In this document: positions 41,788-61,255 of the stretch, piece after piece
How the letters are laid out: each line of letters opens with the position of its first letter
Numbering within the stretch: position 1 is the stretch's first letter
Assembly: GCA_015832175.1 (NCBI GenBank)
Contig: WJXW01000003.1
Coordinates: 2,356,001 to 2,420,000 of the forward strand
Length of the DNA: 64,000 nucleotides
From: Paraphaeosphaeria minitans
Lineage: Eukaryota; Ascomycota; Dothideomycetes; Pleosporales; Didymosphaeriaceae
Reading direction: 5' to 3'
Notes under the pieces: model-generated
Seen by the model: only the letters and a program-made list of their open reading frames with translations
Databases searched by the model: none
What the model was told of the DNA's origin: nothing
Program-made: the position numbers and the translations under genes

Positions 41788-42219
41788 TACGTTGACGGAG
41801 GGCACTGGAAGAATTAGTAAAGGCAGCTGTAGTAGGCAGAAGTCTTACGTCCTGGGGGTCAGCCTCGAATTCGAAAGTGCGGGATGTGGATGATGCGTAT
41901 GAATCCGGGCTGCTATCACGAGGCGCGTTGCTGGCGGTGCTCGACTCGGAAGGGATCTTGTCAGGTTGTTGTAGTACCGCATGAAGCTGCTGCTGAAGCT
42001 GCTCTCGCGAAGCCGAACGCCTTTTAGCGGGTTTAGCTGGACGCTTATGGATAAGGCCAAAATGCGACGTTTCCTCTCTAATTACTGATACTATCGTGGT
42101 CTCACAAAAGCAAGCTTCTTCCAGTTTTAGAAAGTGGAAAGCAGTTCTTCGAGACTTGATTTGCACTTTCTGGTACTTGAATGTTTAATTTTGCTTAATA
42201 TTCATCAGTTGTGCGATAC
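41788..42219. other. Gap without a supported gene
   Basis: GC-balanced sequence between the relict fragment and the tRNA gene. A minus-strand open frame (42166 to 41696) overlaps the relict and has no recognisable domain. I see no promoter or repeat here. Confidence 0.4.
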
Positions 42220-42348
42220 GCATCGGTGGTTTAGTGGTAAAATTAGCCGTTGCCATCTAATCTCGGCTAGCCCCGGGTTCGATTGTGAGTTCCGCCATCA
42301 GTGTCAAAAAACTAAGCACTTCTAACATAGATCAGCCCGGCCGATGCA
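42220..42348 (+). tRNA. tRNA-Gly (GCC) split by a 51-base GT...AG insertion in the T arm
   Basis: The 5' half fits tRNA-Gly: acceptor strand GCATCGG (42220-42226), A-box-like D arm, anticodon stem AGCCG/CGGCT (42245-42249 with 42264-42268), anticodon GCC at 42252-42254. The anticodon loop has 14 bases, so a roughly 7-base intron at the canonical place is likely. The T stem starts CCGGG (42273-42277) with loop TTCGATT (42278-42284). Then come 51 foreign bases (42285-42335), after which the rest of the T stem CCCGG (42336-42340), acceptor strand CCGATGC (42341-42347) and discriminator A follow. Removing the 51 bases restores perfect T and acceptor stems. A T-run follows at 42362-42368. It is either a gene with an unusual intron or a recently broken copy. 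Confidence 0.75.
42285..42335 (+). other. Spliceosomal-intron-like insertion inside the tRNA gene
   Basis: 51 bases long; it begins GTGAGT (a textbook 5' splice site), has CTAAC (42322-42326, a fungal branch-point sequence) 9 bases before its end, and ends ATCAG. Length and signals match the ordinary mRNA introns of this window (46-110 bases). It sits exactly between T-loop position 60 and T-stem position 61. I see no flanking duplication. Confidence 0.7.
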
Positions 42349-42361
42349 ACCCATCTCTCAA

Positions 42362-42368
42362 TTTTTTT
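42362..42368 (+). terminator. RNA polymerase III terminator (T7)
   Basis: Seven T residues 14 bases after the discriminator base, the usual Pol III stop, suggesting the whole split gene could still be transcribed as one unit. Confidence 0.6.
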
Positions 42369-60959: not shown

Positions 60960-61255
60960 GGGCGGTGGGTGCTGGCGGGGTGCTGGGTGCTGGGTGCTGG
61001 GTGCTGGGTGCTGGACGGTGGGTGCTGGCTGCTGGCTGCTGGCTGCTGGCTGCTGGGCGGTGGGTGCTGGCGGGGTGCTGGCTGCTGGGCGGTGGCTGCT
61101 GGCTGCTGGCTGCTGGGCGGTGGCTGCTGGCTGCTGGCTGCTGGACGGTGGGTGCTGGCTGCTGGCTGCCGGCTGCTGGGCGGTGGGTGCTGGCGGGGTG
61201 CTGGCTGCTGGCTGCTGGCTGCTGGCTGCTGGCTGCTGGCTGCTGGCTGCTCTGG
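60960..61255 (+). repeat. GCTGCTGG minisatellite, about 300 bases
   Basis: Composed of GCTGCTGG, GGTGCTGG and GGCGGTGG units with higher-order periods (for example the block GGCGGTGGGTGCTGGC recurs). Each unit is close to the recombination-associated GCTGGTGG core. The repeat makes long spurious frames on both strands. Confidence 0.9.

Follow-up and report, generated by a model that had tools for sequence, protein, structure and literature searches.

Probable spliceosomal introns in twelve tRNA genes of the fungus Paraphaeosphaeria minitans

The tRNA-Gly(GCC) gene of the window and its copies

The window analyzed here is a stretch of 64,000 nucleotides of the Paraphaeosphaeria minitans genome (contig WJXW01000003.1, 2,356,001-2,420,000). 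It contains, at 42220..42348 on the + strand, a tRNA-Gly(GCC) gene whose T arm is interrupted between positions 60 and 61 (Table 1). Three exons of 36, 22 and 13 nt are separated by a 7-nt intron at 37/38 and a 51-nt intron at 60/61. Excision of 42285-42335 leaves a perfect T stem (CCGGG/CCCGG), the loop TTCGATT and the acceptor stem GCATCGG/CCGATGC. An earlier sequence-only reading had described the 51-mer with this repair of T stem and acceptor; both its coordinates and the repair are exact. The GTGAGT start, the CTAAC near the 3' end and the CAG end that it reported are all present, and its remark that the size equals that of nearby mRNA introns agrees with the 46-74 nt spanned by 13 mRNA-like introns identified ab initio genome-wide. 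The 7-nt intron TCTAATC, because of which the anticodon loop is 14 nt long, is an addition, having been overlooked in that reading.

In the unspliced window, neither ARAGORN without its intron option nor Rfam at gathering scores gave any match. With introns allowed, ARAGORN reported nothing for the unspliced gene and a tRNA-Gly(gcc) once the 51-mer was excised. By their match to the consensus sequences, TGGTTTAGTGG is the presumed A box and GGTTCGATT the presumed B box core. The upstream element TTCTGGTACTT is probably part of the promoter.

Table 1. Features of the interrupted tRNA-Gly(GCC) gene in window coordinates
Feature	Position	Strand	Remarks
Upstream element TTCTGGTACTT	42168..42178	+	Small variants in most tRNA-Gly(GCC) copies
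tRNA-Gly(GCC) exon 1	42220..42255	+	Acceptor 5' strand, D arm, anticodon stem and loop to position 37
A box TGGTTTAGTGG (presumed)	42227..42237	+	Match to consensus
Canonical tRNA intron at 37/38, 7 nt	42256..42262	+	TCTAATC; tRNA endonuclease type
tRNA-Gly exon 2	42263..42284	+	Anticodon stem 3' strand, variable loop, T stem 5' strand, T loop
B box core GGTTCGATT (presumed)	42276..42284	+	Final CC falls past the intron; match to consensus
Spliceosome-type intron at 60/61, 51 nt	42285..42335	+	GTGAGT...CTAAC...CAG
Branch-point motif CTAAC	42322..42326	+	Branch A 10 nt from intron 3' end
tRNA-Gly exon 3	42336..42348	+	T stem and acceptor 3' strands, A73
T7 run	42362..42368	+	Likely Pol III terminator

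The surroundings of the gene were also described. Positions 1-41300 of the window form an AT-rich block (GC about 0.31), and the gene sits about 1 kb outside its border. Up to 40 kb this block has TpA/ApT of 1.7-2.0 and (CpA+TpG)/(ApC+GpT) of about 0.4-0.5, ratios that mark repeat-induced point mutation. A dienelactone hydrolase adjoins the tRNA-Gly gene and is 79% identical to one of Paraphaeosphaeria sporulosa and 75% to one of Karstenula rhodostoma, which places the fungus in the Pleosporales, close to Didymosphaeriaceae. Further along, 60981-61251 holds an array of 39.6 copies of the 7-base unit TGCTGGC.

The genome examined, that of this one fungus, comprises 47.45 Mb in 30 contigs. Two DNA searches found tRNA-Gly(GCC) genes at the same seven places, and an exon pattern of 25 letters, at most 3 mismatches being allowed, matched exactly these seven loci (control 0), so that no degraded further copy is present genome-wide at that threshold. 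The 60/61 insert is found in five of the seven genes: the window gene (L001), L002, L003, L005 and L006, with lengths of 51-54 nt. The two others, L004 and L007, lack it, and both match the Rfam tRNA model with a 28-nt canonical intron; in L004-L007 the 37/38 intron measures 28-29 nt. All five inserts begin with GTGAGT and finish with CAG or TAG, and the branch A of their CTAAC lies 10-13 nt before the end. The 51-mer is beyond chance, since four more tRNA-Gly genes have an insert with the same signals at the identical base. The sequence GTTCGATTGTGAGT occurs genome-wide only at the five interrupted tRNA-Gly genes, which account for 5 of the 12 matches of a looser pattern; the other seven are not tRNA by eye, and two of them (L040 and L047) resemble mRNA 5' splice sites. 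Very short introns, about 6-8 nt long and lying at the canonical site or close to it, were seen in L001-L003 and also in L012, L013 and L035; the genes concerned are Thr(AGT), Gly(GCC) and another tRNA.

The exons of the five interrupted copies are intact, with 105 of 105 stem cells paired (100%). Their sole difference is in the acceptor stem of L002, where C5:G68 is replaced by a compensated U:A, so that its 5' end reads GCATTGG; the two sides of this changed pair flank the insert. The further exon damage that the sequence-only reading proposed to look for is absent from all five copies. Among the ten pairs of insert bodies, L001-L002 (P 0.001) and L001-L006 (P 0.017) stand out from shuffles and the other eight do not (P>0.05). 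The bodies are thus mostly at shuffle level while GTGAGT, CTAAC and YAG are kept in 5/5. An introner origin, one of the two routes suggested in that reading, found no support: the 51-mer and the inserts of L002, L005 and L006 match genome-wide only tRNA-Gly loci or themselves, in a search covering these four of the five Gly inserts. Reverse splicing, the other route, may account for the insertion.

The flanks of the copies tell of their history. From -85 to -1, six of the seven are 61-88% alike, the lowest pair lying at the top of its shuffles, and the 5' flank of L006 is unlike the others; most 3' flanks are at shuffle level. L004 and L007 are 95.5% alike across 3.07 kb. L001 and L004 are 88% alike from -170 into the anticodon loop. 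L005 and L007 are 82% alike in a 1.42-kb segment that runs from the 5' flank into the gene and breaks off at the T-arm 5' splice site, right before the insert; past this point they are unlike. L007, L004, L005 and L001 look chimeric, with 5' flanks common up to 1.3 kb and different 3' flanks. Presence and absence of the intron thus appear to have been shuffled by duplication and recombination within tRNA genes. Upstream of the tRNA-Gly gene of L003, a long hairpin or inverted repeat (L003:1054-1241) has a sub-cut-off match to miRNA models and is perhaps a small transposon.

Interrupted genes in other tRNA families

Fifty further tRNA loci, out of 52 matches (L007 and one more being left out), were scanned for GTRNGT...YTRAY...YAG. 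The single match was an initiator tRNA-Met gene, L095, with a 53-nt intron at 38/39. An exon pattern for this tRNA then identified 3 genes genome-wide (control 0), the two others, L096 and L097, having 52-nt introns at 46/47; all three genes found are interrupted, and no uninterrupted copy occurs among the exon-pattern matches. After excision the three are identical across 72 nt. The restored tRNA has A1:U72, A54, A60 and three G:C anticodon-stem pairs, as read by eye, which are features of a functional initiator tRNA-Met. In L095 and in the tRNA-Gly T arm alike the intron stands at the loop 3' end of a hairpin CCGGG-N7|intron|CCCGG, which could be chance or a target preference.

Two tRNA-Trp(CCA) genes, L102 and L103, have introns of 53 and 57 nt at 23/24. 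The lead came from an A-box pattern (50 matches, control 27), of which six stretches were fetched; both Trp genes found are interrupted, and among the pattern matches looked at no uninterrupted form of the Trp A box was seen. As the tRNA census scored 62 of 1307 candidates, "all found" for initiator Met and Trp holds within the genes found, and intron-less genes of another sequence may exist for both. Both Trp copies carry an A31.C39 mismatch.

A general scan was made on 227 kb drawn from 77 sources, after 27 loci that overlapped or were public had been set aside; the ten interrupted genes already known were included. GT-branch-AG segments were excised and the products submitted to ARAGORN. 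A tRNA across the junction resulted from 12 of 317 excisions, namely the ten known genes, a tRNA-Leu(CAG) gene (L088) with an intron at 10/11 and one tRNA-Pro(AGG) gene with an intron at 21/22, whose D stem is imperfect. Decoy excisions gave 0/146, 2/133 and 0/178 (total 2/457), both positives lying inside the interrupted Trp gene L103. In silico, excision thus restores an ARAGORN tRNA in 12/12 interrupted genes; excised L005 is called Thr, with a wrong anticodon, because the program misplaces its 37/38 intron. Before excision, and with introns allowed, ARAGORN overlooked 6 of 10 interrupted genes and assembled another 3 incorrectly. Two other loci were noted in passing: L098, a tandem tRNA-Thr(AGT) pair 109 bases apart within a repeated unit, and L099, a truncated tRNA-like 5' half followed by a T run, with no GT intron by eye, which is probably a pseudogene.

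Judged from sequence, 12 tRNA genes of five families are interrupted at six positions, and the genome holds at least that many. The positions (10/11, 21/22, 23/24, 38/39, 46/47 and 60/61) follow the standard tRNA numbering. Eight of the twelve genes (Gly, Trp and Pro) have a second intron at the canonical 37/38.

Signals and composition of the introns

The 12 introns start with GTGAGT (5), GTAAGT (5) or GTACGT (2) and end with CAG (9) or TAG (3). The branch motif is CTAAC in 11 and CTAAT in one. Its branch A precedes the 3' end by 10-13 nt in 10 genes and, by eye, by 10 and 11 nt in Leu and Pro. Their lengths are 49-57 nt. In size, GT-AG ends, branch site and in silico restoration of the product all agree with U2-type spliceosomal introns, and none is at the canonical 37/38. 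L095 and the Leu and Pro genes were found by the intron signals themselves; L096, L097, L102 and L103 were found by exon pattern alone, yet all four have GTRNGT, CTAAY and CAG. No mRNA-like consensus letters at the exon ends are common to the 12 introns.

For comparison we used the 13 mRNA-like introns, a small, unverified set (reversed-sequence control 1) in which three members starting with GTGTGT are doubtful. It replaced a first ab initio scan of 25 candidates (control 2), which contained simple repeats and the window insert. Compared with this set, the tRNA introns contain more A (0.36 vs 0.21) and less G (0.11 vs 0.26), and they fold more weakly (P about 1e-4 or below for each). CTAAY is present in 12/12 of them vs 6/13 mRNA-like introns (Fisher P 0.005). 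A run of at least four T follows the gene 3' in 12/12 cases. None of the 12 introns contains TTTT; shuffles give the same in 23% of trials (P 0.23), and this was dropped as evidence for Pol III.

Of the 66 pairs of intron bodies, 2 reach P<=0.01. A kinship across families between the introns of L097 (initiator Met) and L102 (Trp), with P 0.004, was rejected in view of the 66 pairs tested. The introns of L097 and L088 (Leu) have the same first 14 letters, GTAAGTTCAATCAA, in different tRNAs and at different positions.

Origin, excision and comparison with known systems

The tRNA-Gly(GCC) gene of the window is very probably a functional nuclear gene and its 51-mer a true spliceosomal intron of U2 type; at least 12 tRNA genes of this fungus would carry such introns. 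This reading, based on sequence, follows from the exact repair of the exons, the kept splice and branch sites, the recurrence in five families at six positions and the interruption of every initiator Met and Trp gene found. An mRNA-type intron in a Pol III gene, one of the alternatives of the sequence-only reading, is thereby strongly supported from sequence.

Its other alternative was a fresh pseudogene. According to a passage of Yoshihisa 2014 (PMC4090602), insertions in the D or T arm of eukaryotic tRNA genes mostly affect a single member of a large synonymous set, which is then supposed to be a pseudogene; two tRNA-Gly copies do lack the insert. The inserts, mRNA introns or junk, would then never be excised from dead copies. 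We hold this to be extremely improbable: of the genes found, 5/7 Gly, 3/3 initiator Met and 2/2 Trp carry an insert between intact exons, the Gly exons differing by one compensated pair only, and a cell without these tRNAs could not translate. Neither the fully paired Gly stems nor the Met exons, identical in 3/3, show pseudogene decay, and recurrence in four more families contradicts a fresh event as well. Nor do we give more than the slightest credence to the idea that the introns belong to overlapping Pol II transcripts, the tRNA likeness being incidental. The ab initio scan for introns between open frames did catch the window insert; against this, the Gly exons and insertion site recur amid unrelated 3' flanks (in L006 amid an unrelated 5' flank too), and exon conservation tracks the tRNA exactly.

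Two further explanations concern how the insert is removed. Cyanidioschyzon merolae and nucleomorphs have ectopic tRNA introns, also in the T arm, as described in parts of PMC4090602 and PMC9602550, and the tRNA splicing endonuclease could likewise cut a bulge-helix-bulge (BHB) fold at the insert sites. The 37/38 intron present besides in 8/12 genes would suit such a pathway. We regard it as very unlikely, since the 4-bp central helix was found in strict register in 0/12 genes and, over nine relaxed registers, in 1/12 (L103), and since BHB splicing would have no need of GTRNGT, CTAAY and YAG. Of the BHB geometry, the test covered the central helix. Excision by an Ire1-like or other nuclease with a ligase, the GT-AG likeness reflecting mRNA-intron origin only, could draw on the tRNA ligase pathway, which a part of PMC4090602 describes as widespread in fungi. 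It is most implausible: branch and splice motifs are fixed in bodies diverged to shuffle level, and origin alone would not preserve them.

Under the spliceosomal reading, Pol III, directed by the A box, the B box and elements upstream, would transcribe the genes as far as the T run, and the spliceosome would excise the GT-AG intron before the tRNA folds and is trimmed. In the 8/12 genes with a second intron (Gly, Trp and Pro), tRNA endonuclease and ligase would remove it. The Gly intron separates the B box from its final two letters and the Leu intron severs the A box, so that Pol III use may be impaired; in Leu the CAG end of the intron partly rebuilds the A box (TGGC becoming CAGC). The introns, G-poor, A-rich and weakly folded, would leave the tRNA fold undisturbed. 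They may have been gained several times and, in Gly, spread or been lost via duplication and recombination among tRNA copies.

These features suggest that the spliceosome is required for making the interrupted tRNAs. We think it likely that it is an essential tRNA-maturation machine in this fungus, on which all initiator tRNA-Met and tRNA-Trp would depend, that two unrelated splicing systems act on many pre-tRNAs, and that spliceosomal intron gain has a lasting target in tRNA genes (six positions or more, two of them within one three-gene family). tRNA splicing and mRNA splicing are regarded as separate systems. If the reading is true, essential tRNAs needing the spliceosome would couple translation to mRNA splicing and would show Pol III transcripts to be capable of serving as routine spliceosome substrates. 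Interrupted tRNAs would also be a clean system for intron gain, because the tRNA exon marks the exact landing site. As ARAGORN misses or misbuilds most unspliced interrupted genes, unseen cases may exist in other fungal genomes. A gapped pattern of T loop and intron gave 1 and 2 matches in viral_contigs and genome_contigs, in which ARAGORN found no tRNA; T-loop variants with C/G at 59 gave 4 matches vs 18 in the control, none of them tRNA by eye.

Canonical nuclear tRNA introns, at 37/38, are cut out by the Sen endonuclease. They share the RNA class with the GT-AG introns and are present in 8 of the 12 genes, whereas the GT-AG introns lie at other positions, have a branch site and measure 49-57 nt. 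Ectopic BHB introns of C. merolae, nucleomorphs and archaea also interrupt D, anticodon and T arms, several per gene (parts of PMC4090602 and PMC9602550); those of P. minitans lack a strict-register BHB and have GT-branch-AG signals instead. The introner-like elements of Dothideomycetes are likewise gained spliceosomal introns, in the same fungal class, but they are near-identical copies, as set out in a part of PMC4457414, whereas the tRNA inserts have differing bodies and the four Gly inserts searched gave no genomic copies. Among the open-access matches listed, none described tRNA genes with spliceosomal introns. A precedent for such an intron in a short Pol III-made RNA is found in Schizosaccharomyces pombe, whose U6 snRNA gene has an mRNA-type intron thought to have arrived by reverse splicing (Tani and Ohshima, as cited in a passage of PMC10484740); the U6 of P. 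minitans, one match in an Rfam search, is uninterrupted. In P. minitans it is tRNA genes that are interrupted, five families of them at six positions. Spliceosomal introns of Pol III RNAs are already known; tRNA hosts are very surprising for tRNA biology.
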